Assembly: GCA_002781745.1 (NCBI GenBank)
Contig: PFFW01000013.1
Coordinates: forward strand, 1-64,000
Direction of reading: 5' to 3'
DNA length: 64,000 nucleotides
Source of the DNA: Rhodospirillales bacterium CG15_BIG_FIL_POST_REV_8_21_14_020_66_15
GTDB lineage: Bacteria; Pseudomonadota; Alphaproteobacteria; Rhodospirillales; Casp-alpha2
A program made the position numbers and the translations under genes. The first letter of the stretch is position 1. Each line of letters starts with the position of its first letter. Positions 7,916-54,740 of this stretch are shown piece by piece. A model generated the notes under the pieces. It made no database searches, was not told the origin of the DNA, and was given only the letters and a program-made list of their open reading frames with translations.

Positions 7916-8428
7916 ATGTCTGGTTTTGCGGAGTTTATTACAGGGCCGGTGGTGACACTGGGCGCTCCCGATTTGGCCCGCCTTAAGGAATTGGCCTCCA
8001 AATCCGCGAAAAATCGGTACCGCTTCTGCGTTCATGACAGCACGGACCATCCCGTTCAGGAAATGCTGATCTGCGCGCGAGGACACACCTATCTCCCACC
8101 CCATCGGCATCCGCCCGGCAAATGCGAATCCTACCACGTTGTGGAGGGCCAGGCCGAAGTTTACCTGATGGACGAGTCGGGCGCCGTGCTGACAACGCAT
8201 CTGCTTGGGGATTCCCAACACGAAGGAGCGGTGTTCATTCGCATCGCCGAACCAATTTTTCACTTCGTGTTCCCGAGAAGCGACTGGTTTATCTATCACG
8301 AAGTCTTCTCGGGCCCCTGGTCGTTGGAGAAATCCGTCATCCCCGCGCCCTTCAGCCCTCCGGAAGATGACGCACAAGCCATCGCGGCGTTTGTTCGCGA
8401 AGTTACAGGCGTATCGATTGACCTCTAG
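7916..8428 (+). CDS. WbuC-like cupin metalloprotein
   Basis: 170 residues. The cupin metal motif is HTYLPPHRHPPGKCES (His98-type and Glu ligands around residues 58-72), followed by the beta-strand run YHVVEGQAEVYL and the second cupin motif near FHFVFP. Length and sequence style fit the WbuC family of cupin-fold metalloproteins found in O-antigen loci, whose biochemical role is not settled. It is the first gene of a block with clearly lower G+C than the flanks. Its end overlaps the proposed TTG start of the next oxidoreductase by 11 bp. Confidence 0.75.
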   Translation: MSGFAEFITGPVVTLGAPDLARLKELASKSAKNRYRFCVHDSTDHPVQEMLICARGHTYLPPHRHPPGKCESYHVVEGQAEVYLMDESGAVLTTHLLGDSQHEGAVFIRIAEPIFHFVFPRSDWFIYHEVFSGPWSLEKSVIPAPFSPPEDDAQAIAAFVREVTGVSIDL

Positions 8429-10642: not shown

Positions 10643-10679
10643 GGATTGCATCAGCAACATCCCCCCTTGGGCTTGGGTT

Positions 10680-11474: not shown

Positions 11475-11495
11475 AATTAAGGAACTCGCCCAGCG

Positions 11496-14707: not shown

Positions 14708-14708
14708 C

Positions 14709-15437: not shown

Positions 15438-15439
15438 CG

Positions 15440-28228: not shown

Positions 28229-29187
28229 CCCCGAACAGCCAACGCGTCGCCGTCGCCTCGCGGTCCTTTTCCAAGCACCCCGAACTGCGCCGGGCGTTGC
28301 TTGACCGCTATCCCAACACGACCTTCAATGACGCCGGCGACAACCTGCGCGGCCAGGCCCTGATCGATTTCCTGAAGGGCCACGAAAAGGCGATCACGGC
28401 GCTCGAGCCACTCGACGCCGCCCTGTTCGACGCCGTGCCGGAACTGCGCGTGGTCGGCAAGTACGGCGTCGGCCTGGACATGCTCGACCTGGAGGCCATG
28501 CGGGCGCGCGGCGTGAAGCTGGGCTGGACCGCGGGCGTCAACCGCCGCGCCGTGGCCGAACTGACGCTCGGCTTTGCGCTGTCGTTGATCCGCCGGGTAC
28601 CCGCGTCGCTGTCCGTCGTCGCCGGCGGCGGTTGGCGGCAGATCCCGGGACGGCAGTTGACCGGCCGCACGGTCGGCATCATCGGCCTCGGCAACGTCGG
28701 CAAGGACCTGGCCGGGCTGCTCCGCGCCTTCGACTGCCGCATCCTGGCCCACGACATCCGCACGGACGCGGCGTTCTGCGCCCGCGTCGGCGTCGAGATG
28801 ACCGATCTGGACCGCCTGCTCGGCGAGAGCGAGATCGTCTCCATCCACCTGCCCTTGGACGACAGCACGCGGGGCATGATCGGCGCGCGCGAACTGGCCC
28901 TGATGCCGGCGGGCGCGATCCTGATCAACACGGCGCGGGGCGCCATCGTGGACGAGGCGGCCTTGGCGGCCGAACTGAAATCGGGCCGGCTCGGCGCGGC
29001 GGCGTTCGACGTGTTCGCCGTCGAACCGCCCGGGAACAACGTTCTGATCGGTCTCGACGACTTCGTCGCGACGCCGCACATCGGCGGCAGCACGGAAGAG
29101 GCCATCCTGGCCATGGGCCTGGCGGCCATCGACGGTCTCGACAATGCGGGCGATCCGCTCGTCGTGGCCCGGGGGGACCGGCCATAA
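28225..29187 (+). CDS. D-3-phosphoglycerate dehydrogenase-like 2-hydroxyacid dehydrogenase
   Basis: 320 residues. NAD domain motif VGIIGLGNVGKDLAGLL, followed by the catalytic trio: Arg in LINTARGAIVDEAAL, Glu in FAVEPPGNN, and His in TPHIGGSTEEA. It is the short form without ACT regulatory domains, so serine synthesis is less likely. It may reduce the 2-keto group of an ulosonic acid or related acid from the module. Its TAA stop overlaps the next gene at an ATAA junction. Confidence 0.83.
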   Translation: MTPNSQRVAVASRSFSKHPELRRALLDRYPNTTFNDAGDNLRGQALIDFLKGHEKAITALEPLDAALFDAVPELRVVGKYGVGLDMLDLEAMRARGVKLGWTAGVNRRAVAELTLGFALSLIRRVPASLSVVAGGGWRQIPGRQLTGRTVGIIGLGNVGKDLAGLLRAFDCRILAHDIRTDAAFCARVGVEMTDLDRLLGESEIVSIHLPLDDSTRGMIGARELALMPAGAILINTARGAIVDEAALAAELKSGRLGAAAFDVFAVEPPGNNVLIGLDDFVATPHIGGSTEEAILAMGLAAIDGLDNAGDPLVVARGDRP

Positions 29188-31061
29188 CGCCGTCGGTCAC
29201 CATCGCCGACGCGCGCCATCTGCTCGCCCGGTCCGCGCCGGCCGTCCCGCCCGGGTCCACGGCCTGGTACTTCGGCGACGATTACGAACGCTATTGCGCG
29301 TTGAAGGAACGGCTGTCCGCCGCGGTGTCTTGGGGCGACACGGGACGGCGCCTGAACGACATCGCCGAACGTCACGAGGACTCGTTCGTGAATCTTGCCA
29401 ACCGCTTCGACATCGGCGACTGGGACTGGTGGGAGAGCCGCAACCTGGCGGAACGCGGGCCCCTGTCGTCGACCTTCACGGTCGAGTGCTGCCGCCTGAT
29501 CCTGTTCGGCGACTGCCTGGAGCGGGGCGGATCGCACCTCTTCATCGTCGAGGTCCACGACCTGGCCGATATCCTGCTGGCCGAGGCCCGCCGCCGCGGC
29601 GTTCCGGTCCGGTGGCGGGGCCCCGGCGCCGTCCGGCGCCGTGCGGAACGGGCCGCGACCCAGGGCATCGCGTTCCTGCGGTTCGCGCGTGCGGCCCTGC
29701 GCCGCGCGGCGCGGCTTCGCCGCCTGCGCGTCCTCAGGCGGCGGCATCCGATCGACTGGGACCGCCTGCGCGCATGCGACGTGCTGTTCGCCGCCTGGAG
29801 CGCGCCGGACGACTTTCCCGACCGGGGACCGCGCGACGTCGCCCATTACATGGGCGCCCTGCCCCGCGAGGCGCGCGCCGCCGGGATCACGGCCGGATAC
29901 GTCGCCCTGCCGCTCGACTGGATTTACGACGCCGACGAGATTCACAGGAACGCGGTCGCATCGGCGGAGGCGGCGATGGTCGCGGATGACGCCGTGACGA
30001 CCGGCGCCCTGTGGCGGGTGGCGGCGGATGCGGTCCGCCTGCGCGCCGGGCCGAAGCCGGACATGGCGATCGGCGGCCAGCCCCTGGGGACGGTCGCCCG
30101 TATGGTGTTGGCGCGCGAACGTTTCGACTGGCGCGCCGTCACCGCCCGCCTGATGGCGGAGATCGGGCCCTTTCTCGCGCGCCACGGCTGCCGGCCCGGG
30201 GCCGTCTGCCACGTCTATGAGAACCAGACGTGGGAAAAGGGACTGCGGGCCGGACTCCGGCGGGCGCTTCCCGACACGCGGGTCGCCGGCGTCCACCAGT
30301 CGCCGTTCTCCAAGATGTATCTCAACATGCTGCCGTCACAAGCGGAAGTTGCCAAGGGGCGGTGGCCCGACGTCGTGTTCACCCACGGCGCCCGCAGCCG
30401 TCGGCAGTTGACGTCCACCGGCGCCCCGGAAAATCGCGTGATCGACGCCGGGCTGTTCCGCCAGGGATCCTTCATCCTGAACCGCGTTCCCGGCACGGGA
30501 ACGCATCGGCGGTTGGTCGTCGCCACCGGCGTCGATTTCCAGGAATGTTGCGAACTGGTCGCCAAGGCCGCCGCCGCGGCCGGGGACGATTGGGAGCTGG
30601 CGGTCAATTTCCATCCGTCGACCGCGCCGTCGTTCCGCGACGGCATCCGGCGGTTTCTTGAAACGCGGGGCCTGACCGGACCGCGCGTGACCTTTGTCGA
30701 TCACTCGGTCGCCGACCTTTTGAAGAACGGCGCGGACGCGATCCTCTACACCGACACCAACGCCGCGTTCGAGGGCGTATCCACCGGAGCGCGGGCGATC
30801 AACGTCGAACGCGACAGCGCCTTTTCGTTCGACAAGCTTCCCGATGGATTGTCGCGGCGGCTTTACACGGCGGCGGAAATTCGCTCGGCCCTCGGCGAGA
30901 TCGCCGACGACGGGGCCTGGCCCGGGCCTTCCGAGGTCGAGGCCGCCCTGGCGGACTGTTTCAGCGCGGCCGACGCGGCCAAGGTGGTCGCCGCCCTGGG
31001 CCGTGCCGAAAAGAACGCTTCTCCGACGTTTTCCCAGACAGACAAGGTGATGGAACGATGA
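29184..31061 (+). CDS. Large glycosyltransferase-like protein of unrecognised family, apparent ATA start
   Basis: About 625 residues if translation starts at ATA 29184, which overlaps the preceding TAA as ATAA, analogous to the ATGA junctions elsewhere. No ATG, GTG or TTG is in frame near this point; the next TTG (29301) would remove about 39 conserved-looking residues. Contents: TAWYFGDDYERY near the N-terminus, an Arg-rich linker, then a GT-B-like C-terminus with RLVVATGVDFQECCEL, LAVNFHPSTAPSF and ADAILYTDTNAAFEGVSTG. It looks like capsule or surface-polysaccharide glycosyltransferases; the donor and acceptor are unknown. Its end overlaps the RfbF gene by 4 bp. Confidence 0.5.
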   Translation: MTPSVTIADARHLLARSAPAVPPGSTAWYFGDDYERYCALKERLSAAVSWGDTGRRLNDIAERHEDSFVNLANRFDIGDWDWWESRNLAERGPLSSTFTVECCRLILFGDCLERGGSHLFIVEVHDLADILLAEARRRGVPVRWRGPGAVRRRAERAATQGIAFLRFARAALRRAARLRRLRVLRRRHPIDWDRLRACDVLFAAWSAPDDFPDRGPRDVAHYMGALPREARAAGITAGYVALPLDWIYDADEIHRNAVASAEAAMVADDAVTTGALWRVAADAVRLRAGPKPDMAIGGQPLGTVARMVLARERFDWRAVTARLMAEIGPFLARHGCRPGAVCHVYENQTWEKGLRAGLRRALPDTRVAGVHQSPFSKMYLNMLPSQAEVAKGRWPDVVFTHGARSRRQLTSTGAPENRVIDAGLFRQGSFILNRVPGTGTHRRLVVATGVDFQECCELVAKAAAAAGDDWELAVNFHPSTAPSFRDGIRRFLETRGLTGPRVTFVDHSVADLLKNGADAILYTDTNAAFEGVSTGARAINVERDSAFSFDKLPDGLSRRLYTAAEIRSALGEIADDGAWPGPSEVEAALADCFSAADAAKVVAALGRAEKNASPTFSQTDKVMER

Positions 31062-35236: not shown

Positions 35237-36274
35237 ATGAGACCCGAACACCTGAACCTGCTGCGCTGTCCGATGAGCGGCGCGGAACTGGCGATCGCCG
35301 ACGGCATCATCGAGGACGGTCGCGTGCGGTCGGGCCGCCTGGTGGCCAAGGGCGGGGGCGCGGCGGCACCCGCCTATCCCATCGTCGACTTCGTGCCGCG
35401 CTTCGTGTCGTCGGAGAACTACGCGCGCAACTTCGGCTTCGAGTGGAATCTGCATGCGCGAACCCAATATGATTCCGAATCGGGGCACAAGGTGTCCGAG
35501 GAGAGGCTGTTCAAGTATTCGGGCTGGCCGCGGCGGATGGACAGTGAGGTCATCCTGGAGGCGGGGTCGGGATCGGGCCGGTTCACGGAGTCGCTTCTGC
35601 GCACGGGCGCGACCGTGGTGTCCTTCGACTATTCGGACGCCGTGGAGGCCAACCGGGATTCCAACGGCGCCGACCCGAATCTGTTGCTGGTCCAGGCGGA
35701 CATCTACGCGATGCCGTTTCCCAGGGGGGCCTTCGACCGGGTGCTGTGTTACGGCGTGCTGCAACATACGCCGGACCCGGAGGCCGCCTTCAAGGCGCTG
35801 GTCCCGCACCTCAGGCCCGGCGGCCAGCTCGCCACGGACATCTATCTCAAGTCTCTGACCTATTACTGGCTGAACACGCGGTACTGGGTGCGCCCTCTTA
35901 CCCGCGACATGGATCCGGAAAGGCTCTATCGCTGGTGCAAGGCCTATGTCTCCTTCATGTGGCCCTTGGTGCGGGCGCTCCGCCATCTGCCCTTCGGCCA
36001 GGCCGTCATCTGGCGCCTGCTGATCGCCGACACCATTGACGACATGCCCGGCGCGGACGACGCGACCTTGAAGGAATGGGCCTATCTGGACAGCTTCGAC
36101 ATGCTGTCGCCCCGCTACGACCTGCCGCAGACACCTGCGGTGTTCGAGCGGTGGCACCGCGACTGCGGCTTGGAGCATATTGACGTACGGCTCGGCTCCA
36201 ACGGCGTGGCCGGCTCGGCACGCCGCCCGGTGGGCGGCTCGGTGCCCACTGAAAAGGAAGCGACGGACGCATGA
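35237..36274 (+). CDS. SAM-dependent methyltransferase
   Basis: 345 residues. The first 60 residues resemble the N-terminal small domain of methyltransferases with a Trm112-like start (LNLLRCPMSGAEL, later PIVDFVPRFVS). The catalytic domain has ILEAGSGSGRFTESLL, VVSFDYSDAVEANRD and FDRVLCYGVLQHTPDPEAA. It overlaps the HisH gene by 4 bp. It probably methylates a sugar residue. Confidence 0.82.
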   Translation: MRPEHLNLLRCPMSGAELAIADGIIEDGRVRSGRLVAKGGGAAAPAYPIVDFVPRFVSSENYARNFGFEWNLHARTQYDSESGHKVSEERLFKYSGWPRRMDSEVILEAGSGSGRFTESLLRTGATVVSFDYSDAVEANRDSNGADPNLLLVQADIYAMPFPRGAFDRVLCYGVLQHTPDPEAAFKALVPHLRPGGQLATDIYLKSLTYYWLNTRYWVRPLTRDMDPERLYRWCKAYVSFMWPLVRALRHLPFGQAVIWRLLIADTIDDMPGADDATLKEWAYLDSFDMLSPRYDLPQTPAVFERWHRDCGLEHIDVRLGSNGVAGSARRPVGGSVPTEKEATDA

Positions 36275-36891
36275 TCGCCATCGTCGACATCGGCGTCGGC
36301 AATTTGGGCGCCATCAAGAACATGCTGCGCAAGGTCGGTGCCGCGGCCCAGATCACCGACGACGCCGAAGCGATCCGCGCGGCGGACAAGATCGTGCTGC
36401 CCGGTGTCGGCGCCTTCGATCAGGGCATGCGGGCGCTCGCCGCCAGCGGCCTGACGGACGTCCTCAACGAACAGGCGTTGGACGCGCGGAAGCCGATCCT
36501 GGGAATCTGCCTGGGCGCGCAGATGCTGGGCCGGAAAAGCGAGGAAGGCACCCTGCCCGGGCTCGGCTGGATCGACATGGACGTCGTGCGGTTCCCCCGC
36601 GAGCGGGTTCTCAAGGTTCCGCACATGGGCTGGAACACGGTTTCGCCGGCCAAGGTCGACGGCGCCGGCCACCCCATGTTCGGCGGCGGCGCGGCCGAAC
36701 CCCGCTTCTATTTCGTCCATTCCTATTTCATGGAATGCGACCGCGCGGAGGACGTCGCCGCGACCTGCGACTACGGCCGCCGGTTCGCCGCTGCCGTCGC
36801 GCGAGGCAACATCTGGGGCGTGCAGTTCCACCCCGAGAAGAGCCACAAGTTCGGCGCCGCGCTGCTGCGCAATTTCGCGGAGAACGCCTGA
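36271..36891 (+). CDS. hisH2: HisH-type glutamine amidotransferase, acetamidino-sugar pathway
   Basis: 206 residues. Class I glutaminase triad: Cys80 in LGICLGAQML, and His/Glu in VQFHPEKSHKFG near the C-terminus; N-terminal IVDIGVGNLGAIKNML and IVLPGVGAFDQGM. It supplies ammonia from glutamine. Location beside a HisF-like protein and a PseA/WbpG-type amidotransferase, with no other his genes, shows it is the HisH2 partner for making an acetamidino group on a sugar, as in Pseudomonas O-antigen loci, and not histidine synthesis. Confidence 0.87.
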   Translation: MIAIVDIGVGNLGAIKNMLRKVGAAAQITDDAEAIRAADKIVLPGVGAFDQGMRALAASGLTDVLNEQALDARKPILGICLGAQMLGRKSEEGTLPGLGWIDMDVVRFPRERVLKVPHMGWNTVSPAKVDGAGHPMFGGGAAEPRFYFVHSYFMECDRAEDVAATCDYGRRFAAAVARGNIWGVQFHPEKSHKFGAALLRNFAENA

Positions 36892-37659
36892 ATGAACTGG
36901 CCCCGGGTCATCCCCGTCCTGTTGCTGCGCGGGCGCGGTCTTTACAAGACCGTCAAGTTCAAGGACCCGGTCTACGTCGGCGATCCGATGAACACGGTGC
37001 GCCTGTTCAACGAGAAGGAGGCGAACGAACTCGTCGTCCTGGACATCGGCGCCACGGCCGAGGGGCGCGGCCCCAATTTCGATTTCCTGGAAGACCTGGC
37101 CTCGGAATGCTTCATGCCCTTTGCCTACGGCGGCGGCATCACGTCCGTCGAGCAGATCAAGAAGCTGTTCTTCCTGGGCGCCGAGAAGGCGGTGATCAAT
37201 GCCCAGGCCTTCGATCGGCCCGGCCTGATCGACGAGGCGGCGCGTCTGTTCGGATCGCAAAGCGTCGTCGTCTCCATCGACGCGAAGAGAAGGATGCTGG
37301 GCGCTTACGATGTCTGCACCCACAACGGCACCAAGGCCCGGCGCCGCAGGCCGGCGGAATTCGCCCGGGAAATGGAATCGCGGGGCGCCGGTGAAATCCT
37401 GATCAACGCCATCGATCGCGACGGCACCATGACCGGGTACGACCTGGAGCTGGTGCGCGAGGTTTCGGAAGCCGTCTCCGTCCCGGTCGTCGCCTGCGGC
37501 GGGGCCGGCCGCCCGCAGGACTTCCGCGCCGCTGTGGCCGCGGGTGCCGCGGCGGTGTCCGCCGGGGCCTATTTCGTGTTTCAGGGAAAGCACCGGGCCG
37601 TCCTGGTCAGCTATCCCAGCGAGGACGAACTTCGCGCCATCTTTTCACCGGAACAGTAA
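36892..37659 (+). CDS. hisF2: HisF2/AglZ-type cyclase-like subunit, acetamidino-sugar pathway
   Basis: 255 residues, starting directly after the HisH2 stop. The TIM barrel is HisF-like: RVIPVLLLRGRGLYKTVKF, VLDIGATAEGRG, FAYGGGITSVEQIKKLF, NAIDRDGTMTGYD and VPVVACGGAG. The catalytic Asp of the first strand in true HisF (PCLDVKDGRVVKG region) is missing here (PVLLLRGRGLYKT), whereas the Asp in NAIDRDGT remains. This fits the HisF2 branch, which channels ammonia to an amidotransferase rather than closing the imidazole ring. The stop abuts the next start. Confidence 0.86.
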   Translation: MNWPRVIPVLLLRGRGLYKTVKFKDPVYVGDPMNTVRLFNEKEANELVVLDIGATAEGRGPNFDFLEDLASECFMPFAYGGGITSVEQIKKLFFLGAEKAVINAQAFDRPGLIDEAARLFGSQSVVVSIDAKRRMLGAYDVCTHNGTKARRRRPAEFAREMESRGAGEILINAIDRDGTMTGYDLELVREVSEAVSVPVVACGGAGRPQDFRAAVAAGAAAVSAGAYFVFQGKHRAVLVSYPSEDELRAIFSPEQ

Positions 37660-39960
37660 ATGAGCCAAGCCCACTACCAAGTCTGCTCGCGCTGCGTGAT
37701 GGATACCTCCGATCCGGAAATCACGTTCGACGAACACGGCGTGTGCAGCCACTGCCGCAATTTCGATCAGGTCGTCGCGACCGAGTGGTTTCCCGGAGAG
37801 GCCGGCAAACCCCGACTGGATGCCCTCGTCGAGGAAATCAAGGCCTGGGGGCGGGGGCGCGAATACGACTGCACGATCGGTCTGTCAGGCGGCGCGGATT
37901 CTTCGTATCTGGCTTATCTCGCGGCCAAGGAATGGGGCCTGCGGCCGCTGGCGGTGCACGTGGACACGGGCTGGAACTCTCCCTTCGCCGTGCGCAATAT
38001 CGAAAATCTGGTCAAGAAGCTGAATATCGACCTTTATACCTTCGTCATCGATTGGGAGGAAATGCGCGACCTGCAGGTCGCCTTCCTGAAATCCGGCGTC
38101 GCCAACCAGGATACGCCCCAGGACCATGCCATCTTCGCCAAGCTGTTCAGCTTCACCGCCGAGAACAAAATTCGCTACGTCCTGTCCGGCCACAACATCG
38201 CGACGGAAAGCGTGCTGCCCGAGTCCTGGGAATACACGGCGCGGGACGACAAGCACATCCGCGCCATCCACCGCCGGTTCGGGACACGGTCGCTCCGGAC
38301 GCTGCCGATCATGTCGGTGTTCCGCAGTTTCCTGTACGCCCGCCTGGCGCCGTTCAGGTTTCTGCCCGGGATGAAGATCGTCAATCCCCTGGACTTCGTC
38401 GATTACAACAAGGACCGGGCAAAGGCCCAACTGGCCCGCGAAATCGGCTGGCAGGAATACGGCGCCAAGCATTTCGAATCCCGGTTCACCAAGTTCTTCC
38501 AGGCCTATTGGCTGCCGGAACGATTCGGTTACGACAAGCGCCGCGCCCACCTTTCCAGCCTCATCCTTGCCAAGCAGATGACCCGGGATCAGGCACTGGC
38601 CGAGCTGGAAAAACCCATGTATCCGCCGGAGGAACTCGCGGAAGACAAGGAGTTCGTACGCAAGAAGCTCGAACTCACCGAGACGGAGTTTGAGGAAATC
38701 CTGTCGGCGCCGGTCCGCCACCACACGGAATATCCGTCCTATGCCCGGCTTGCCCGGGCATGGCGGTTTCTGCAGAAAGGCATTCGATCGGTCCGCCTGC
38801 GCAATGCCCCCTTGCTTCGTGAAGCCGCCACGGCCTCGGACGGAACGCTCGACATCTGCATTCTCGGTTCGGCCCGGGACACGCACGTCGTTACGCGCGC
38901 ACGCGCGATGTCGCGCCAAGGCCATCGCGTAACGATGATTTCACGCACCGCGGGCTCGACGACGGAACTGCCCGTGATCGTTCCGCACAGCCTGAAGACC
39001 CCGTTTGAATTCCTCAACAAGCCGCTCATGGTGTTACCGTTGGCCTGGGCGATCTACCGGCAGCGCGCCGACGTGTTCTACGCTCATTATGCGGCGGAGT
39101 ACGAATGCTGGCTGGCCGCCTTGCTGTTTCGCCGGCCGTTCGCCGTCAACGCCATGGGGTCGGACGTTCTGATCGAGGCCACGGGTCGGCGTGGCCGGCT
39201 TCGCGCCTGGCTGACGATGTTCGCCCTTCGCTCGGCCGAAGTGATCACGGTCAAATCCCCCTACCTGGCGCAGACCGCACGCGACCTGGGCATCCCCGGG
39301 AACCGGATAACGGAGGTCCTGTGGGGAATCGACCCCAGGAACCATCACCGCGACGATGCCGCGCGCCGGGCGTGGCGCGCGCAGTGGGGCGCCGATGAAA
39401 CCACCCCGGTGGTGCTCAGCCCGCGGCCGCTGGAACAGCTCTATCGCCAGCATCTGGCCGTGCAGGCGATGCCCGAAGTGATGAAGACGTATCCCGACGC
39501 GATCCTGGCGTTGTCGGAATTCAAGCAGGATAAGGAATACCGGAAAACCCTTGAAGAAATCGCCGAGACCCTGGGCGTTGCCGACCATGTCAAGTTCGTC
39601 CCGGCGCTGGGCGAAGACCGCATGGCGGGCCTGCTGTCCGCCGCCGACATCGTCGTCAGTCTGGCCTATACCGACGGCACGCCGCAGACCGTGCTGGAAG
39701 CCCAGGCCTGCGAGACGCCGGTTCTGATCGCCGACATTCCCGACATCCGCCACGTCTTCACGGATCGCAAGGATTGTCTTATCTCGAAGGACGACCCCCA
39801 CGCGATCGCCGAGGGATTGATCGCCATCCTGGAAGACGACAATCTGCGAAACACGATCGTCGCCGGCGGTCTTCAACTGGTTTCCGAAAAAGCGAATCTT
39901 CCGCGCGAGGTCGACCGCGTGGAACGGCTCCTGCGGGCGATCGCGGTCACGCGCCGCTGA
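37660..39960 (+). CDS. Fusion: N-acetyl sugar amidotransferase (PseA/WbpG) + GT4 glycosyltransferase
   Basis: 766 residues. Residues 1-375 form a PseA/WbpG-type amidotransferase: Cys pairs in CSRCVMDTSDPEI and CSHCRNFDQV (possible Zn site), an adenylating PP-loop SGGADSSYLAYLA near residue 75, HVDTGWNSPF, and SGHNIATESVLPESWEY. These enzymes use ammonia from HisH/HisF to convert an N-acetyl to an acetamidino group. From about residue 397 (LDICILGSARDTHVVTRA) a complete GT4 domain follows, with YAHYAAEYECWLAALLF, NAMGSDVLIEATGRRG, and the donor-site segment GTPQTVLEAQACETPVLIAD. The join shows no stop or frameshift. It could modify a residue and then transfer it. Confidence 0.85.
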   Translation: MSQAHYQVCSRCVMDTSDPEITFDEHGVCSHCRNFDQVVATEWFPGEAGKPRLDALVEEIKAWGRGREYDCTIGLSGGADSSYLAYLAAKEWGLRPLAVHVDTGWNSPFAVRNIENLVKKLNIDLYTFVIDWEEMRDLQVAFLKSGVANQDTPQDHAIFAKLFSFTAENKIRYVLSGHNIATESVLPESWEYTARDDKHIRAIHRRFGTRSLRTLPIMSVFRSFLYARLAPFRFLPGMKIVNPLDFVDYNKDRAKAQLAREIGWQEYGAKHFESRFTKFFQAYWLPERFGYDKRRAHLSSLILAKQMTRDQALAELEKPMYPPEELAEDKEFVRKKLELTETEFEEILSAPVRHHTEYPSYARLARAWRFLQKGIRSVRLRNAPLLREAATASDGTLDICILGSARDTHVVTRARAMSRQGHRVTMISRTAGSTTELPVIVPHSLKTPFEFLNKPLMVLPLAWAIYRQRADVFYAHYAAEYECWLAALLFRRPFAVNAMGSDVLIEATGRRGRLRAWLTMFALRSAEVITVKSPYLAQTARDLGIPGNRITEVLWGIDPRNHHRDDAARRAWRAQWGADETTPVVLSPRPLEQLYRQHLAVQAMPEVMKTYPDAILALSEFKQDKEYRKTLEEIAETLGVADHVKFVPALGEDRMAGLLSAADIVVSLAYTDGTPQTVLEAQACETPVLIADIPDIRHVFTDRKDCLISKDDPHAIAEGLIAILEDDNLRNTIVAGGLQLVSEKANLPREVDRVERLLRAIAVTRR

Positions 39961-40134: not shown

Positions 40135-42072
40135 ATGTGCGGCCTGACCGGATTTCTCGACCCGCGCGGCACGGTGCCGCTCGACGCGACCGCGCGCGCC
40201 ATGGCCGCGACGCTGGCCCATCGCGGCCCGGACGCCGACGGCGTGTGGGCCGACGACGCGGCGGGCGTCGCGCTCGGCCACCGGCGCCTGTCCATCATCG
40301 ACCTGAGCCCGGCCGGAGCGCAGCCGATGGCCTCGGCCTGCGGGCGCTACGTCATCGCCTACAACGGCGAGGTCTACAACGCCGAGGACCTGCGCCGCGA
40401 GCTGGCGGCGGCGGGCCACGCCCCGAACTACCGCGGCCATTCCGACACGGAAGTGATCGTGGAAGCCTGCGTCCGCTGGGGCGTGCGCGCCGCCGTGGAC
40501 CGGCTGGTCGGCATGTTCGCCTTCGCGCTCTGGGACAAGGAGACACGAACCCTGGTCCTGGCCCGCGACCGCCTGGGCATCAAGCCGCTGTATTGGGGCG
40601 AAGCGGGCGGGCTGTTCCTCTTCGCGTCGGAGCTGAAGGCGCTGCACGCCCATCCCGGATTCCGCGCCGAGGTCGACCCGGCGGCGCTCGCCGCCTACAT
40701 GCGCCACAACTACGTGCCGGCGCCGGCCTGCATCTACAAAGGTGTCTTCAAGCTGGAGCCGGGATGCCTCCTGGTCAAGCGCGCCGGCGAGGCCGCGCGC
40801 ATCGAGCGCTACTGGGACCTGCGGCGCGTCGCCCGCGAGGGCCAGCGGTCGCCCCGCGATCTGACGGACGCCGAGGCCGTGGACGAGGCGGACCGGCTGA
40901 TCGGCGACGCGGTGAAGCGGCGCATGGTGTCCGACGTGCCGCTCGGCGCGTTCCTCTCGGGCGGCATCGATTCCTCCACCGTCGCCGCCCTCATGCAGGC
41001 GCACAGCGACCGCCCGGTGAGGACCTTCTCCATCGGCTTCGACGTCGACGGGTTCGACGAGGCGCCCCACGCGGCCGCCGTCGCCCGCCACCTGGGCACC
41101 GACCATACGGAGCTTTACGTCGATCCCGGCCAGGCGCTCGACGTCATCCCGCGCCTGCCCGAGTTCTATGACGAACCCTTCGCCGACTCGTCGCAGATCC
41201 CGACCTACCTGGTGTCCGCCCTGACGCGCCGGCACGTCACCGTGGCGCTGTCCGGCGACGGCGGCGACGAGGTGTTCGCCGGCTACACACGCTATGCCTG
41301 GGGCGACCTGCTGCGCCGGCGCACGGGCTGGCTGCCGCGCCCGCTTCGCCGCGCGGCCGCCTGCGGGCTGCACGCCCTGAGCGAGGAAGCGTGGGACCGG
41401 CTGCTTGCGGTCCTGCCCGCATCCAGGCTGCCGAGCCATCCCGGCCAGAAGGTGCACAAGCTCGCCGACGTCCTGGCCCAGCCCGACGACATGGCGCTTT
41501 ACCGCAGGTTGATCACCGCCTGGCGCGATCCGTCGGCCCTGGTGCCGGGCGCACAAGAGACGCCGACCGTCGCCTGGGACGACGGCGCGCGCGACGACGT
41601 GCCCGCCTTCATGGAATGCATGCAGATGCTGGACAGCCTGACCTACCTGCCCGACGACATCCTGACCAAGGTCGACCGCGCCTCGATGGCGGTGTCGCTG
41701 GAGGCCCGGGTGCCGCTGCTCGACCATCGGGTGGTCGAGTTCGCCTGGTCCCTGCCGCGCCGCCTGCGCGTGCGGGACGGCCAGGGCAAATGGATCCTGC
41801 GCCGCGTGCTCGACCGTTACGTTCCGCCGGCCCTGACCGAGCGGCCCAAGATGGGCTTCGGCATTCCCGTGGACAAATGGCTCAGGAGACCGCTGCGCGA
41901 CTGGGCCGAGGACCTGTTGTCGCCCCAGGCACTGACCGAGGGCGGCCTGCTGAACCCGGCGCCGGTCCGCCATGCCTGGGCCGAGCACCTGGCGGGCACC
42001 CGCAACCGCACGACGGAGCTGTGGTGCGTGCTGATGTTCCAGGCCTGGCGCCGCCGCTGGGGGGCGGCCTAG
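40135..42072 (+). CDS. Asparagine synthase-type glutamine amidotransferase, copy 1
   Basis: 645 residues. N-terminal class II glutaminase with nucleophile Cys2 (MCGLTGFLDPRG) and Asn/Gly oxyanion segment AYNGEVYNAEDL; synthetase domain with PP-loop FLSGGIDSSTVAAL (about residues 274-287), FSIGFDVDGFDE, and LSGDGGDEVFAGY. AsnB-like enzymes in O-antigen loci amidate carboxyl groups of uronic acids or otherwise transfer nitrogen; asparagine synthesis is less likely given the context. It is followed immediately by a second, distinct copy. Confidence 0.88.
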   Translation: MCGLTGFLDPRGTVPLDATARAMAATLAHRGPDADGVWADDAAGVALGHRRLSIIDLSPAGAQPMASACGRYVIAYNGEVYNAEDLRRELAAAGHAPNYRGHSDTEVIVEACVRWGVRAAVDRLVGMFAFALWDKETRTLVLARDRLGIKPLYWGEAGGLFLFASELKALHAHPGFRAEVDPAALAAYMRHNYVPAPACIYKGVFKLEPGCLLVKRAGEAARIERYWDLRRVAREGQRSPRDLTDAEAVDEADRLIGDAVKRRMVSDVPLGAFLSGGIDSSTVAALMQAHSDRPVRTFSIGFDVDGFDEAPHAAAVARHLGTDHTELYVDPGQALDVIPRLPEFYDEPFADSSQIPTYLVSALTRRHVTVALSGDGGDEVFAGYTRYAWGDLLRRRTGWLPRPLRRAAACGLHALSEEAWDRLLAVLPASRLPSHPGQKVHKLADVLAQPDDMALYRRLITAWRDPSALVPGAQETPTVAWDDGARDDVPAFMECMQMLDSLTYLPDDILTKVDRASMAVSLEARVPLLDHRVVEFAWSLPRRLRVRDGQGKWILRRVLDRYVPPALTERPKMGFGIPVDKWLRRPLRDWAEDLLSPQALTEGGLLNPAPVRHAWAEHLAGTRNRTTELWCVLMFQAWRRRWGAA

Positions 42073-42077
42073 GCGCC

Positions 42078-44012
42078 ATGTGCGGCATCGCGGGCATTGT
42101 CGCGAAGGACGGACGCAGCGTCGATCCGGCAGAGTTGGCGCGCATGTCCGCGGCCATCGCCCACCGCGGGCCCGACGACCAGGGGGCGGCGGCATGGTCG
42201 CCCGAGGGCGGCGTCACCCATGCCCCTCATTGCGCAGCTCTGCCGACCGACGCGCGGATCGGCCTCGCCCACCGGCGGTTGTCGATCATCGACACGGGAC
42301 CGGGCGGCCATCAGCCCATGGCGACGCCCGACGGCCGCCATGTCCTGATCACCAACGGCGAGATCTACAACTACCTGGAACTGCGCCGAGAGCTGGAGGC
42401 CGAGGGCACGGTCTTCGCGTCCCAGTCGGATACGGAGGTGCTGCTGATCGCCCTCTGCCGCTGGGGCGTGGCGCGGACCCTGCCCCGTCTGACCGGAATG
42501 TTCGCCTTCGCGTTCCTGGACACTGTCGCCGGAACCCTGACCCTTGCGCGCGACCCTTTCGGCATCAAGCCGCTGATGTGGGCCCTGCGCGGCGGCGACC
42601 TGGCCTTCGCGTCAGAGCCGGGGGCGCTGTTGGAACTGACGGGCCTGTCCCGCGCCGTCGAACCGCAGGCGCTTTACGACTACCTGCGCTTCGGCCTGAC
42701 CGACCGGGGCGAGCGGACCCTGTTCCGCGAGATCCATCATCTGCCGCCGGCGTCGTTCGCGGTGATCGACCTGGACCGTGTCGCGGCCCCCGCGCCCGAA
42801 ACCTATTGGCGGCCGCGCACGGACGTCACGTCCGGCATCACCTTCGACGAGGCCGCCCGCGAACTGCGCCGCCTGTTCATGGACTCGGTGGCGTTGCACC
42901 TGCGCGCCGACGTGCCCGTGGGTGCGGCCCTTTCGGGCGGCATCGATTCGTCGGCCGTGGTCTGCGCCATGCGGGAGATCGAAGGGCAAGACCTGCGGCT
43001 CCACACCTTCAGCTTCACCGCCCCGGGCGACCGCCATGACGAGGCGCATTGGGCCGACATGGCGGGCCGCGCCGCGCGGGCGACCATACACAAGACAACC
43101 TCGTCGGGGGCGGCCCTGTCGGAAAGCCTCGACGGGCTGATCCGGATCCAGGGCGAGCCCTTCGGATCGACCAGCATCTTCGCCCAGAGCCGGGTCTATG
43201 CCCTGGTCAAGGATGCCGGGATCAAGGTGACGCTCGACGGCCAGGGCGCGGACGAGATCCTCGCCGGCTACGTGCCCTTCCTCGCGGCGCGCCTGGCCGG
43301 CATGTTGCGCCGGGGCGAGGTGATGCGCGCCGCGCGGTTCCTCTGCGCGGCGACGGACCAGGCCGGCCCTCTCGGCATGCTTGCCCGCGCGGCGCGGTTC
43401 ATCCTGCCCACCGGCCTGCAGGGCATCGCCCGCCGCCTGGTCGGCGAGGACCTGGTGCCCGATTGGATGGACGGCCGCTGGCTGGCGGCCCGAGGCGTCG
43501 CCGCCCGCGCGCCCCAGCAGCCGAAAGGCGGCCGGGTGCTCGTGGACGAGTTGGCGGAAAGTCTGCAGAGCCGCGTGCTGCCGGCCCTGCTGCGCTATCA
43601 GGACCGCAATTCCATGTCCTACGCCGTCGAAAGCCGGGTGCCCTTTCTGATCCCCGAACTGGCCGATTTCGTCTACTCCCTGCCCGAGGAATGCCTGATC
43701 TCCGGCCGGGGCGAGACCAAGTCCGTGTTCCGCGCCGCCATGCGCGGCCTGGTCCCCGACGCGATCCTGGACCGGCGCGACAAGATCGGCTTCATCACGC
43801 CGCAGGACGCCTGGCTGCGCGAATCGGGCGGCTGGCTTCGGACCCTCATCGACAGCGACGCCGCACGCGCCGTGCCGGCGCTCGATCACGGCGTCCTGGC
43901 GCGGCGCGTCGACGCCCTGATGACCGACGGCGGGCCGATACCGCAACAGGTCTGGCTGGCCGCGAACCTGATCCGCTGGTCGGAAATCCATCAGGTCGAT
44001 TTCGCCGCGTGA
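42078..44012 (+). CDS. Asparagine synthase-type glutamine amidotransferase, copy 2
   Basis: 644 residues from ATG 42078, 5 bp after the first copy. MCGIAGIVAKDGR with Cys2, TNGEIYNYLELRRELEAE, PP-loop LSGGIDSSAVVCAM near residue 287, FSFTAPGDRHDEAHWADM and LDGQGADEILAGYVPFL. The sequence differs substantially from copy 1 throughout, so this is not a recent duplication. The repeat may contain two amidated uronic residues, or the copies act on different sugars. It is followed after 7 bp by a methyltransferase. Confidence 0.88.
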   Translation: MCGIAGIVAKDGRSVDPAELARMSAAIAHRGPDDQGAAAWSPEGGVTHAPHCAALPTDARIGLAHRRLSIIDTGPGGHQPMATPDGRHVLITNGEIYNYLELRRELEAEGTVFASQSDTEVLLIALCRWGVARTLPRLTGMFAFAFLDTVAGTLTLARDPFGIKPLMWALRGGDLAFASEPGALLELTGLSRAVEPQALYDYLRFGLTDRGERTLFREIHHLPPASFAVIDLDRVAAPAPETYWRPRTDVTSGITFDEAARELRRLFMDSVALHLRADVPVGAALSGGIDSSAVVCAMREIEGQDLRLHTFSFTAPGDRHDEAHWADMAGRAARATIHKTTSSGAALSESLDGLIRIQGEPFGSTSIFAQSRVYALVKDAGIKVTLDGQGADEILAGYVPFLAARLAGMLRRGEVMRAARFLCAATDQAGPLGMLARAARFILPTGLQGIARRLVGEDLVPDWMDGRWLAARGVAARAPQQPKGGRVLVDELAESLQSRVLPALLRYQDRNSMSYAVESRVPFLIPELADFVYSLPEECLISGRGETKSVFRAAMRGLVPDAILDRRDKIGFITPQDAWLRESGGWLRTLIDSDAARAVPALDHGVLARRVDALMTDGGPIPQQVWLAANLIRWSEIHQVDFAA

Positions 44013-44019: not shown

Positions 44020-44856
44020 ATGACGGAACCGGACGGCACGCCGCTGAATATCACCGGGCTCCTCGACGCCGGAGGGACGCTCCGGCTTTCCGGCGCCGGC
44101 GACGCGGAATGGCGCCGGATCACCGAGGCATCCCTGGAGGAGTACCGCCGGCATCATCAGGCGCAGGACTATCCGCCATCGACGCTCCATGTCATGGCCG
44201 CGTTCGAAGGGTTCATCGCCAAATGGGCGGGAATCTGGGACGCCCGGACCATGATCGACCTGGGCTGCGGCATCGGCACCGCCCTGCCGCCCTATGTGCG
44301 CAACATCGCGGGGTCGCCGGCCTACGTCGGGCTGGACCCGCTGGACGAGAATCCGCAACGCGACTATCCCTTCATCCGCGGGCGGCTCGAGGATCTGGCG
44401 GTCCGTCCGCTCGACAAAAAATTCGACCTGGCGCTGTTTGCGACCTCGCTTGATCACTTCGAGGATGCTAGGAACGCCCTGGCCCTCGCCGCCAAGATCA
44501 CCGGCGGCGGCCACGCGGTCATCTGGTGCGGCCTGCACGATTCGCCCCTGATCGCGCGCAACGACCTGTCCGTCCGGATTGCCGACCTGTGCCGAAACAA
44601 CCGATCCTTCCCGACCCGCACCTTGGCCTTTCTGGGTCTCGCCATCCTGACCTGGCCGCGCGTGGCCTGGGCGCTCGCCCGCCGCGAGCGCGCGCTTGCC
44701 GCCGGTCGGCCGCTCGACGACCTGCATTTCCATTACTTCACCGAGGACAGGCTGAGGGCGCTGCTGGCGTCCGCCGGCACCATTCACGAGTTTGTCCATT
44801 GCCCCGGCACCAACAGCGTGTTCGCCGCCGTGACCCTTTCCGCCGAAACCGAATGA
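44020..44856 (+). CDS. SAM-dependent methyltransferase
   Basis: 278 residues. Motif I is [17 protein letters not shown] (about residues 85-101), then [17 protein letters not shown] and [17 protein letters not shown] hydrophobic segment around residues 205-220 ([18 protein letters not shown]) could contact the membrane. Function is inferred as glycan methylation. It precedes the WbpB-WbpD fusion by 10 bp. Confidence 0.8.
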
Positions 44857-44866: not shown

Positions 44867-46446
<1,580 letters not shown>

Positions 46447-46450
<4 letters not shown>

Positions 46451-47586
46451 CCGCTGCTTCCGACGCCCCCATCGCCTTCATCGACCTGCAGGCCCAGCGC
46501 GCGCGCCTGGGCGACAGTATCGACCAGGCCATCGCCAGGGTCCTCGACCACGGCCGCTTCATCATGGGGCCCGAGGTCGCGGAACTGGAGAAACGCCTGG
46601 CCGAAATGGCAGGCGCCCGGCATTGCGTGACCTGCTCAAGCGGCACGGACTCCCTGCTGCTGGTCCTCATGGCCTGGGGCATCGGCCCCGGCGACGCCGT
46701 CATCGTGCCGGCCATGACCTTCGCCTCGACGGCCGAGGTGGTGGCGCTGGCGGGCGCCACGCCCGTGTTCTGCGACGTGCTGCCGGACACCTTCAACATG
46801 GATCCGGCGAGCCTGGAAGGCGCCGTCGCCACGGCGAGGGACCAGGGCCTGAACCTGAAGGCCGTGATCCCCGTCGACCTGTTCGGCCAGCCCGCCGACT
46901 ACCCCGCGATCCGGAAGATCGCCGGGGCGCACGGCCTGAAGGTCCTGGCCGACGCGGCGCAGAGCTTCGGCGGCACCCTGAACGGCAAACCCGTGGGATC
47001 GTGGGGCGACGCGACCTCGGTCAGCTTCTTCCCGGCCAAGCCCTTGGGCTGTTACGGCGACGGCGGCGCGGTGCTGACCGACGACGCGGACCTGGCGGCG
47101 CGCATGCGCAGCCTGCGCGTGCACGGCCAGGGCACCAACAAGTACGACAACGTGGCGATCGGCCTGAACGCGCGGCTCGACACCCTGCAGGCGGCGATCC
47201 TGCTGGCCAAGCTCGACATCTTCCAGGACGAGATCGCCAAGCGGCAGGACGTGGCCGCCCGCTATGCCGAGGGCCTCGCCGGCGTCGCCGCCGCACCCGT
47301 GGTGGTGGAAGGGGCGCTCAGCGCCTGGGCCCAGTACACGATCCGCGTGACGGACCGCGACGCCGCGCAGAAAAAGCTGAACGCCGCCGGCGTGCCGACG
47401 GCGGTCTACTACCCGGTGGCGCTGTCGGATCAGCCGGCCTATGCCCATTACCCCCGTGCGGGCAATGGCACGCCGGTGTCGGCGGCGTTGGCCCGGGACG
47501 TGCTGAGCCTGCCCATGCATCCCTACCTGGATGCCGCGACCCAGGACCGCATCCTGGCGGCCCTGAAGGAAGCGATCGCGGCGTGA
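46447..47586 (+). CDS. wbpE: WbpE/WlbC-type UDP-3-keto sugar aminotransferase
   Basis: 379 residues. DegT family: [18 protein letters not shown] start typical of WbpE/Wlb[31 protein letters not shown], Schiff-base Lys198 in [16 protein letters not shown], and [10 protein letters not shown]. It aminates UDP-3-keto-GlcNAcA to give the 3-amino sugar that the WbpD domain then acetylates. It is nested between the WbpB-WbpD fusion and the 2-epimerase with 4-bp overlaps on both sides. Confidence 0.9.
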
Positions 47587-48620
47587 CCCGCATCGCAACC
47601 GTCGTCGGCGCGCGCCCGCAGTTCATCAAGGCGGGGCCGGTCAGCCGCGCCTTCGAGGACGCCGGCATCGCCGAGGTGCTGATCCACACGGGCCAGCATT
47701 TCGACGACGGCATGTCGGACGTGTTCTTCCGCGAACTGGGCCTGGCCGCCCCCGACCATCATCTGGGGATAAGCGGCGGCGGCCACGGCGACATGACGGG
47801 GCGCATGCTGATCGCGCTGGAGCCCGTCCTGATGAACGACAGGCCCGACGGCCTGCTGATCTACGGCGACACCAATTCGACCCTGGCGGGGGCGCTGGCG
47901 GCGGCCAAGCTCGACATCCCCGTGTTCCATGTCGAGGCCGGGCTGCGCTCGTTCCGCCGCGCGCAACCCGAAGAGATCAACCGCCGCGTCGCCGACCACC
48001 TGTCGACGCTGCTGTTCTGCCCGACGCCGCAGGCGATCTCCAACCTGGCCGAGGAAGGCATTTCGCGCGGCGTCATGCTGGTCGGCGACGTCATGTACGA
48101 CGCGGCCCTGCAGGCGGCCGGCCGGCCCGAGGGATCGGACATCGTCGCACGCCTGGGTCTGACCGCCGGCGAATACGAGGTCGCGACCGTGCACCGGGCC
48201 GAGAACACGGACGACGACGCGACCCTCGCCAAGGTCGTCGATTTCCTCAAGGCGCGGCCGGGCACGGTCGTCCTGCCCCTGCATCCCCGCACCAAGGCCG
48301 CGCTGGCCCGCGCCGGCCTGACGCTCGACGGCGTCACCGTGACGGAGCCCCTCGGTTACCTGGAGATGACGCATCTGGTTAAGGCGAGCGCCGGGGTGCT
48401 GACCGATTCCGGCGGCCTGCAGAAGGAAGCCTATTTCCACCGCGTGCCCTGCGTCACCCTGCGCGACGAGACGGAATGGGTCGAGACGGTCGAGGCCGGA
48501 TGGAACCGCCTGTGGCAGGGGCCGGACTTCAGCCGGCCGCGCCGCGACATCGACGCCTACGGCGACGGCGGCGCGGCCACCCGCATCGCCCAGGCCATCC
48601 GGGAGTTCATGGCCGCGTGA
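47583..48620 (+). CDS. wbpI: UDP-GlcNAc(3NAcA) 2-epimerase, WbpI type
   Basis: 345 residues from GTG 47583. Non-hydrolysing 2-epimerase: VVGARPQFIKAGPVSRAF, IYGDTNSTLAGALAAAKL, HVEAGLRSFRRAQPEEINR, VATVHRAENTDDD and LTDSGGLQKEAYF. The ARPQFIKA form of the first motif is typical of WbpI-like enzymes that epimerise UDP-GlcNAc3NAcA to UDP-ManNAc3NAcA. It sits directly behind WbpE, completing the pathway with WbpA at 53454. Confidence 0.9.
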   Translation: MTRIATVVGARPQFIKAGPVSRAFEDAGIAEVLIHTGQHFDDGMSDVFFRELGLAAPDHHLGISGGGHGDMTGRMLIALEPVLMNDRPDGLLIYGDTNSTLAGALAAAKLDIPVFHVEAGLRSFRRAQPEEINRRVADHLSTLLFCPTPQAISNLAEEGISRGVMLVGDVMYDAALQAAGRPEGSDIVARLGLTAGEYEVATVHRAENTDDDATLAKVVDFLKARPGTVVLPLHPRTKAALARAGLTLDGVTVTEPLGYLEMTHLVKASAGVLTDSGGLQKEAYFHRVPCVTLRDETEWVETVEAGWNRLWQGPDFSRPRRDIDAYGDGGAATRIAQAIREFMAA

Positions 48621-49720
48621 TCGGGCGCAAGCACCTCCTTTATCTCGCCCTGGAAGCCCCCCGCGAGGGCCAGGCGTCCTATGCGCACATCCACGAAATC
48701 TGCGGCGGCCTCAGGCGCCGGGGCTGGACCGTCGATCTGTTCGCGCCGTCCTATTCCGGCGCGTGGAAACGGCCCGGCCTGGCGCGGCGCATGCTGGAAT
48801 ACCTGTGCCTGCAATGGCGCCTGATGCGCGCCTTCGAGGACGGACAGGTCGTCTACGTGCGCTCCCACTTTCTGGCCTTTCCGGCGTCGTTCTGGGCGCG
48901 GCTGCGCGGCGCGCCCATCATCCATGAAATCAACGGGCCCTACGAGGACGTCGCCATCGCCTATGCCTGGGCGCGGCCGCTCGCCGGCGTCATCAAGTGG
49001 ATGTGGCGCAGGCAGTTCCGATGGGCCGGGCGGCTGATCACGGTGACGCCGCAACTGGCCGACTGGGTGCGCGCCCAGGGCGTCACGACCCCGGTCGACG
49101 TGGTGCCCAACGGCGCCAACACGGAGCTGTTCCACCCCCACGCTGATTGCGGCCTGGACCTGCCCGAACGCTACGCCGTGTTCTTCGGCGGGCTCGCCCG
49201 CTGGCAGGGCATCCCGACCCTGCTGGCCGCCAGACGGTCGCCCGCCTGGCCGCAAGGCGTCGACCTAGTGATCGTCGGCGACGGGCCGGAGCGCCCGGCG
49301 GTCGCGGCGGCGGCGGCCGGAGACCCCGGCATCGTTGATCTGGGCCGCCAGCCCTACCGCGTGCTGCCCGGCATCGTCGCCCGCAGCCTCTGCGGCCTGG
49401 TGCCCAAGAACAACCTGGGCGACCGCACGGGCACCGGGCTTTTTCCCCTGAAGGTGTTCGAGACCCTGGCCTGCGGCGTGCCGGCGATCGTCACCGACTT
49501 TCCCGGGCAGGCGGACCTGGTGCGCGACAACGATTGCGGCCTGGCCGTTCCGGCCGAGGACCCCGACGCCCTGGCGCGGGCCGTCGCGGAACTCGCCAGC
49601 GATCCAGCCCGCGCCGCAGAGATGGGCCGGCGCGGGCGCGACGCCGTCGTCGCCGCCCATTCCTGGGACATCCGGGCGGGCGAAACCGAAGCCGCGCTGC
49701 AGAGACTGACCGCCGCCTGA
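48617..49720 (+). CDS. GT4 glycosyltransferase
   Basis: 367 residues from GTG 48617 (GTGA overlap). GT-B fold of family 4: EAPREGQASYAHIHEI at the N-terminus, VPNGANTELFHPHAD linker motif, LVIVGDGPERPAV, and the donor-site GLFPLKVFETLACGVPAIVT with E-x7-E-like spacing in the family. It likely adds the diacetamido- or acetamidino-uronic residue, given that it follows the genes making it; this is an inference. The final A of its stop starts the wzx gene. Confidence 0.87.
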   Translation: MIGRKHLLYLALEAPREGQASYAHIHEICGGLRRRGWTVDLFAPSYSGAWKRPGLARRMLEYLCLQWRLMRAFEDGQVVYVRSHFLAFPASFWARLRGAPIIHEINGPYEDVAIAYAWARPLAGVIKWMWRRQFRWAGRLITVTPQLADWVRAQGVTTPVDVVPNGANTELFHPHADCGLDLPERYAVFFGGLARWQGIPTLLAARRSPAWPQGVDLVIVGDGPERPAVAAAAAGDPGIVDLGRQPYRVLPGIVARSLCGLVPKNNLGDRTGTGLFPLKVFETLACGVPAIVTDFPGQADLVRDNDCGLAVPAEDPDALARAVAELASDPARAAEMGRRGRDAVVAAHSWDIRAGETEAALQRLTAA

Positions 49721-53337: not shown

Positions 53338-53453
53338 GAGCGGGGTCCGGCGGCTGACGGTCACTGCGGGCGGATGCGGGGCGATCTTAGGCGCAACGCC
53401 GCCGATGCGGAACCTTGTTGTTTCCACCACCCGGAATGGGCTAAGAGCCTGAC
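53338..53453. promoter_or_regulatory. Divergent intergenic region before the reversed GT and wbpA
   Basis: 116 bp separate the proposed starts of the leftward glycosyltransferase and rightward wbpA. Promoters for both directions are expected here since neither gene can be read through from its neighbour. I see AT-richer sequence around 53410-53420 but no boxes I would assign with confidence. Confidence 0.4.

Positions 53454-54740
<1,287 letters not shown>

Follow-up and report, generated by a model that had tools for sequence, protein, structure and literature searches.

The 64,000-nucleotide window analyzed here (positions 1 to 64,000 of the forward strand of contig PFFW01000013.1, from a Rhodospirillales bacterium) contains on its plus strand an open reading frame (ORF) at 37660..39960 in which a WbpG/WbuX-type N-acetyl sugar amidotransferase (AT) is joined to a glycosyltransferase of family GT4. 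The ORF runs in a single frame from ATG to stop with 0 internal stops and encodes 766 amino acids. The AT domain (residues 1-348; 37660..38703) matches TIGR03573 (WbuX) over residues 7-348 with a score of 295.6 bits compared with a cut-off of 203.2, and its best solved relative by sequence is a Legionella enzyme (PDB code 8wex, 30.9 bits). The motifs of the N-acetyl sugar amidotransferases, a PP-loop SGGXDS and a tetracysteine CXXC...CXXC, are described for LpNASAT in PMC10607449. Both catalytic hallmarks are intact in the AT half, with the zinc-type tetracysteine formed by Cys-9, Cys-12, Cys-29, and Cys-32 (37684..37755) and the PP-loop present as SGGADS at residues 76-81 (37885..37902). In the full-length AlphaFold2 model the AT part has a predicted local distance difference test score (pLDDT) mostly >85.

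The fusion retains the C-terminal tail of the AT itself to about residue 386, with the GT4 domain beginning ~10 residues beyond. This tail (residues ~349-386), which with the junction of ~10 residues occupies 38704..38844, is also present in free-standing homologues, and a helix is predicted at residues 362-393 with the confidence falling along its length. The GT4 domain (residues 396-766; 38845..39957) is covered over residues ~399-744 by Pfam GT4/GT1 models scoring over their gathering thresholds (PF00534, 91.4 compared with 26.4 bits; PF13439, 46.9 compared with 28.5 bits). In the full-length model 259 residues have pLDDT <50 and the GT4 half is unusable. Modeled from residues 393-766 alone, the GT4 gives a GT-B fold with a pLDDT of 91.0 and a predicted TM score (pTM) of 0.89. 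By sequence alignment, Asp-672 and Glu-680 (D-x7-E; 39673..39699) would be the equivalent of the GT4 EX7E motif, the first acid being an aspartate as it is in six free-standing GT4 relatives. A loop at residues 495-508 (AxxAMGSDVLIEAT; 39142..39183), which aligns with the HGTD loop of BshA (PDB code 5d00), is altered in 3/3 fused copies.

A stop codon or frameshift missed between two genes has almost no chance of explaining this ORF. The assembly of the genome containing the window (termed G000) is a draft of 198 contigs, which would leave room for such an error; however, orthologous fusions recur in two genomes of the same genus, G029 (764 amino acids, 80% identical) and G032 (762 amino acids, 77% identical), the latter genome being a single contig, and the linkers of the three fusions differ in length by whole codons only. 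Purifying selection acts on the AT, the junction, and the GT4, with nonsynonymous rates (dN) well below synonymous rates (dS) in each: 0.076-0.080 and 1.12-1.51 for the AT, 0.35-0.51 and 1.13-2.47 for the tail and linker, and 0.18-0.22 and 1.21-1.85 for the GT4. In-frame start codons in the linker are few and fall at different residues in each of the three genomes. The two further genomes, the codon-multiple indels, and the low dN rule out a sequencing error or assembly artefact, including the loss of a stop near residue 390, which an earlier reading of the letters alone (here the sequence-only reading) had named as the refuting case. Its claim that a complete GT4 follows the AT without a stop is upheld by an ORF spanning exactly 37660 to 39960 and by the Pfam domains, and the AT-GT4 fusion is confirmed as a genuine ORF with both domains complete.

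The genes on either side, of which those given here with coordinates are on the plus strand, place the fusion in a pathway for 2,3-diacetamido-2,3-dideoxymannuronic acid (ManNAc3NAcA). Upstream lie a methyltransferase, MT1 (35237..36274; Pfam), a HisH2-type glutaminase with residues Cys-80, His-187, and Glu-189 (36271..36891; TIGR01855, 232.7 compared with 105.4 bits), which overlaps MT1 by 4 bases, and a HisF2/AglZ-type ammonia-channel partner (36892..37659; NF038364, 350 bits compared with a cut-off of 310). HisH2, HisF2, and the fusion abut one another with 0-base gaps. Downstream are two asparagine-synthase-like amidotransferases, AsnB1 (40135..42072; PF00733) and AsnB2 (42078..44012; PF00733, 203 bits; PF13522, 135 bits), and a second methyltransferase, MT2 (44020..44856; Pfam). 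These are followed by a WbpB-like oxidoreductase fused to a WbpD-like N-acetyltransferase (44867..46450; 194.7 bits to a lipopolysaccharide-biosynthesis acetyltransferase, PDB code 3mqg), the WbpB-like part of which matches at E 1e-20 only two oxidoreductase structures that carry no pathway name. Next are a WbpE-like aminotransferase (46447..47586; 381 bits to WbpE structures 3nu7/3nyu), a WbpI-like UDP-2,3-diacetamido-2,3-dideoxyglucuronic acid 2-epimerase (47583..48620; 373 bits to 8sxv, the next differently named enzyme scoring 258 bits), and a glycosyltransferase termed GT4b (48476..49720; Pfam), the true start of which is probably near 48617. A WbpA/TviB-like UDP-GlcNAc 6-dehydrogenase is encoded at 53454..54740 (TIGR03026, 379 compared with 189.8 bits; the TviB model gives 481 bits, below its cut-off of 592), and a flippase, a further GT4 (GT4c), a polyprenyl-phosphate sugar transferase, and a WbpM-like protein also lie downstream of the fusion.

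All five roles of the UDP-ManNAc3NAcA pathway are present (dehydrogenase, oxidoreductase, aminotransferase, acetyltransferase, and 2-epimerase), and the locus is predicted both to make this nucleotide sugar and to hold the acetamidino machinery, which is the situation of WbpG. The abutting HisH2 and HisF2 and the downstream UDP-ManNAc3NAcA genes indicate that the fusion is WbpG-like and not PseA-like, and from the label PseA/WbpG given by the sequence-only reading the WbpG type, which forms the acetamidino derivative ManNAc3NAmA, is retained and the PseA type is dropped. The PseA-type assignment is ruled out both by the content of the locus and by a separate HisH-HisF-WbuX set in the same genome (contig C114; 31% identical over residues 7-119). 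Contig C122 has another two HisF-like matches next to each other (43% and 25% identity), probably hisA and hisF of the histidine pathway. The WbpB-like and WbpD-like proteins form a second pathway fusion in the locus, one ORF of 527 amino acids (44867-46450), and are likewise a single ORF in loci L065, L067, L072, and L215.

Among eight genomes of the genus, three carry the fusion (G000, G029, and G032), three carry a free-standing GT4 at the same locus (G031, G033, and G034), and two (G028 and G030) have neither. The loci with the free-standing GT4, which is 35-39% identical to the fused one, are without HisH2, HisF2, and AT, and the genomes with the fusion are the only ones of the eight to have a close HisF2 (83-84% identical in G029 and G032). 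The gene order in G000 and G032 is MT1-HisH2-HisF2-[AT-GT4]-AsnB1-AsnB2-MT2, and that of G029, read from two contigs, is likewise; in G031 and G034 the order is MT1-AsnB1-GT4-AsnB2-MT2, and in G033, where the locus is split over contigs, GT2-AsnB1-GT4-AsnB2. The position of the GT4 therefore differs, the free-standing form lying between AsnB1 and AsnB2 and the fused form upstream of AsnB1 beside HisF2, which means that the fused GT4 goes with the acetamidino module and is absent from the old slot.

Comparison of the close relatives G032 (with the fusion) and G031 (without) over 23 shared genes shows the GT4 (36% identity), MT2 (54%), and MT1 (68%) to be the least alike, followed by AsnB2 (74%) and GT2 (77%), with the remaining 18/23 at 82-98%. 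The UDP-ManNAc3NAcA genes are 92-98% identical between these genomes and show no switch, and AsnB1 (91%) tracks the genome and not the acetamidino state. MT1 is 78% identical within the fusion state (G000-G032) and 82% between G031 and G034 compared with 65-68% between states, and MT2 is 76% identical within either state (G000-G032 and G031-G034) compared with 54-58% between them, switching with the acetamidino genes despite the presence of AsnB1 and AsnB2 in between. Taken together, GT4, MT1, and MT2 are 71-78% identical within G000-G032 and 53-82% within G031-G034. HisH2, HisF2, AT-GT4, MT1, and MT2 change as one set with the acetamidino state, and this co-segregation in six same-genus loci ties the fused GT4 to the acetamidino residue but does not fix its role. 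No match >60 bits to MT1 or MT2 occurs in the 101 other loci compared (L082-L182). One of the two may methylate the acetamidino group, by analogy with PtmH of Campylobacter jejuni, listed as an N-methyltransferase beside PtmG in PMC13317340.

In a phylogenetic tree the fused GT4s form one clade (support 100/100) that is sister to the free-standing GT4s of the same locus (85/83), an arrangement that fits the same step being carried out on a modified or an unmodified sugar. The tree leaves out L159 and L140 and includes four added neighbor glycosyltransferases; GT4b is placed with uncertainty, on a long branch (2.78). Six glycosyltransferases that follow wbpG homologues, labeled WbpH-like by position after the glycosyltransferase gene wbpH of the Pseudomonas aeruginosa PAO1 cluster, group in a clade (100/100) to which the fused GT4 does not belong, and a profile built from the fused and free-standing GT4s gives them 29-36 bits. 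Orthology of the fused GT4 to WbpH is ruled out by this separation.

Eight positions are fixed differently in the 3 fused compared with the 6 free-standing GT4s, and 5 of these are in the loop at residues 495-508, a change that marks an altered protein and not which substrate is bound. When the comparison is restricted to the three same-locus GT4s, the N and C halves each hold 18 fixed differences. Identity between fused and free-standing GT4s is 41% over the N half and 32% over the C half, and among the three free-standing proteins it is 57% and 45%; the half-by-half pattern is the same in both sets and favors the acetamidino sugar neither as donor nor as acceptor. The closest structural match to the GT4 model is BshA (PDB code 6n1x) with a Z score of 40.1 and a root-mean-square deviation of 2.2 over 357 residues, and further matches are BshA 3mbo (TM score 0.85), HepE (Z 36.7), MshA (Z 35.4), and PimA (Z 34.3).

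G000, G029, and G032 are the only carriers among 48 genomes searched from the family, and a search for other WbpG-GT4 fusions finds two, in G029 and G032, both within the genus. Wider scans with TIGR03573, judged among the matches listed, covered 398 genomes at the level of the phylum and 297 at that of the order. Further frames of at least 700 amino acids among those matches come from G188, G344, G055, G680, G622, G578, and G640, and no GT4 is seen, by eye and in part with AT and GT4 profiles, in these seven or in several frames of 600-698 amino acids; the long AT frames outside G000, G029, and G032 owe their length to chance extension at the 5' end, to fusion with HisF, and in one case to fusion with an amidase. 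A scan of the class (385 genomes, at most two candidates each) spans both domains only in G000 among the matches listed, and 0 of 41 plasmid records with a match cover 80% of the fusion query. Viral contigs have 3 loci with AT matches, the AT frames being 351 and 377 amino acids long and that of L162 being cut by the contig end. A set of 78 named loci was drawn from the best 80 of 579 relatives, and as the AT frame of L119 is cut by a contig end, 77 have a visible end; their AT frames continue for 28-88 residues (median 38) beyond fusion residue 348 and 0/77 have a C-terminal GT4, in agreement with the sequence-only reading that WbpG is usually a separate protein.

The AT and glycosyltransferase genes are nonetheless common neighbors. 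A downstream gene is found in 57/78 AT loci and matches PF13692 in 28/57, and the fusion therefore unites genes of two types that frequently lie next to each other. A Bacteroidia metagenome-assembled genome has an 825-amino acid frame with the GT4 first and the AT after it (L151:8657-11134), a doubtful case that may be two genes, having a CT-rich simple-repeat junction just before an ATG of its own at residue 442. Both domains, the partner proteins, and the neighborhood of the window are thus of known kinds, and what is new is the AT-GT4 architecture, which in the sampled genomes occurs outside the genus only in this doubtful frame. A WbpG-glycosyltransferase fusion is not described in the titles and abstract openings of the open-licence literature searched.

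Other partners are joined to WbuX-type proteins in the samples. HisF is joined to the AT in six genomes from the order and phylum (L199, L200, L201, L202, L077/L078, and L079), assignments made from N-terminal sequence or tblastn and Pfam-confirmed in L200 only. The second AT copy of L087 has 282 residues upstream in frame, with HisF matches in the same locus, and may be another such fusion. L198:1008-3620 combines a WbuX-type amidotransferase with an amidase domain (PF01425, residues 442-843 of 870) that is a possible alternative ammonia source. In L080:9637-11634 and L081:8346-10169 a WbuX-like domain is preceded by a class II glutamine amidotransferase-like domain, recognized by Pfam GATase_6 in L080 and by sequence similarity in L081, that may replace HisH/HisF.

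We infer from this arrangement that the fusion is probably a bifunctional surface-polysaccharide enzyme in which the AT amidinates ManNAc3NAcA and the GT4 of the same repeat unit handles the modified residue directly. HisH2 would release ammonia from glutamine, HisF2 would channel it to the AT domain, and the AT with ATP would convert the 3-acetamido group of a ManNAc3NAcA unit to an acetamidino group (ManNAc3NAmA). The C-terminal GT4, as a glycosyltransferase of the same repeat unit, would then act directly on the acetamidino residue, coupling modification and transfer in one polypeptide, and in the same-genus loci that are without the acetamidino genes the free-standing GT4 would do the corresponding job on the unmodified sugar. 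The match of the pathway enzymes to solved WbpE, the 3mqg acetyltransferase, and the UDP-diNAcGlcA 2-epimerase supports this reading. A narrower form, in which the coupling occurs by channeling or gating and MT1, HisH2, HisF2, AT-GT4, and MT2 are exchanged as a cassette in a conserved polysaccharide locus, is put forward tentatively and falls a little short of an even chance.

Several points weigh against the bifunctional enzyme. The downstream neighbors of 29/57 AT genes are without a PF13692 match. The free-standing GT4s change fast (48-52% identical to each other), so that not all of the divergence goes with the acetamidino state; MT1 and MT2 switch as well, so that the GT4 is not singled out. 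The comparison comprises only 3 fusion and 3 non-fusion loci from one genus, two of which (G029 and G033) are split over contigs, and the switch of the locus is a single correlated change and not a series of repeated independent events. GT4b is a closer companion of the ManNAc3NAcA genes than the fused GT4: in G028 it accompanies the pathway, whereas the fused and the free-standing GT4 are both missing. The activities proposed for the enzyme, and the product expected of the locus, are predictions from its genes.

How the GT4 would handle the residue can be framed in two ways, which the distribution of GT4b and of the GT4 relatives helps to weigh. The sequence-only reading proposed that acetamidino formation is coupled to transfer of the residue; spelled out, the AT would make UDP-ManNAc3NAmA and the fused GT4 would take it directly as donor substrate, keeping it separate from the UDP-ManNAc3NAcA used by GT4b. 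The frequent position of a glycosyltransferase gene right after the AT is in keeping with this, PseA and PtmG of C. jejuni are named as acetamidino-synthases of CMP-sugars in PMC13317340, and a separate pool would be useful if two transferases serve two forms of one sugar. However, across the eight genomes it is GT4b and not the fused GT4 that tracks the pathway genes. It is 70-85% conserved in the six others that carry the ManNAc3NAcA pathway, falling to 27% in G030, the eighth genome, where a close WbpD is absent. Distant relatives of the fused GT4 also occur in G006, G040, and G042, where neither WbpD (best match 21.5-33.4 bits) nor WbpI (33-36%) has a close counterpart, the first two genomes being drafts of 90-91% completeness and G042 being 98% complete. 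The chemistry is a further obstacle, as GT4 enzymes are retaining whereas the known ManNAc3NAmA residues are, to our knowledge, β-linked. We regard direct use as a donor as rather unlikely. The claim that the GT4 handles the acetamidino sugar is partly supported by a real fusion in a pathway locus and by co-segregation in six loci, a donor role being one candidate reading.

Alternatively, GT4b would place ManNAc3NAcA, the AT would amidinate the placed residue, and the fused GT4 would read the acetamidino group and add the next sugar, so that only modified chains are extended. The co-occurrence of GT4b with the pathway and the presence of the fused-GT4 family in genomes without it lead us to lean slightly to this acceptor role, although they are not decisive, and it is best described as possible but doubtful. 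There is precedent for an acetamidino group gating the next transfer, as deletion of the WbpG homologue MMP1081 in Methanococcus maripaludis leaves the third sugar without its acetamidino group and the fourth sugar is lost (PMC2952790), but the result is called unpublished there and the loss of the fourth sugar could be indirect; the Campylobacter precedents (PMC13317340) moreover put amidination at the nucleotide-sugar stage. It is also conceivable, if unlikely, that neighboring operon genes were simply joined, with both halves working but the GT4 serving a sugar that has no connection with the acetamidino residue. Accidental joining of genes that are so often adjacent would be easy, and the cassette could have been exchanged in one piece regardless of the functions within it, MT1 and MT2 having changed too, but the confinement of the fused GT4 to loci with the module, its absence from the old GT4 slot, and its retention in three genomes under purifying selection argue against such a neutral union.

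Should the enzyme prove to couple modification and transfer by channeling or gating and to have been exchanged as a cassette, the glycosyltransferase responsible for reading the acetamidino group would be identified, and loci that naturally have or lack the module would serve to learn at which stage that group forms. For the WbpG type the literature examined leaves it undecided whether the nucleotide sugar or the growing chain is amidinated, and the functional properties of the family are described as little known in the structure paper (PMC10607449). The fused pair provides one protein in which amidination at the donor level and at the lipid level can be distinguished. G032 and G031, whose loci are almost alike apart from the module, single out the transferase and the methyltransferases of interest.

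Three further features of the window stand apart from the fusion. A minus-strand ORF (52363-53430) lies within the plus-strand operon and is kept in seven other same-genus genomes (53-79%), and a long ORF (28632-31061) is conserved in G031, G032, and G034 (59-84% pairwise); neither has a Pfam match at 1e-6 or an NCBIfam match at 1e-20. The G+C fraction dips to 0.55-0.59 at 8001-16000 compared with 0.63-0.64 alongside and ~0.66-0.73 across much of the window, and this stretch may have been acquired.

The fusion resembles WbpG of P. aeruginosa O5 in scoring over the TIGR03573 cut-off, in its tetracysteine and PP-loop, in the adjacent HisH2 and HisF2, and in the accompanying UDP-ManNAc3NAcA genes, a likeness in family traits and gene setting. 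In PAO1, however, wbpG and wbpH are separate genes, the gene numbers in a table of PMC2658670 running hisH2, hisF2, wbpG, wbpH, whereas here the GT4 is carried on the C terminus of the AT. The WbpH-like proteins encoded after wbpG homologues share the GT4 family and the position directly after the AT but belong to a separate clade. The free-standing GT4 of G031, G033, and G034, from the same locus and the sister clade, differs in having the loop VMGGDVLF[DE]EQ in place of AMGSD[VI]LIEAT. BshA, HepE, MshA, and PimA share the GT-B fold of the fused GT4 but are 16-20% identical and use different substrates. In the other WbuX-family fusions (HisF-AT, class II GATase-AT, and AT-amidase) the AT is likewise joined to another protein, with the partner there being an ammonia-supplying or amidase domain and here a glycosyltransferase.

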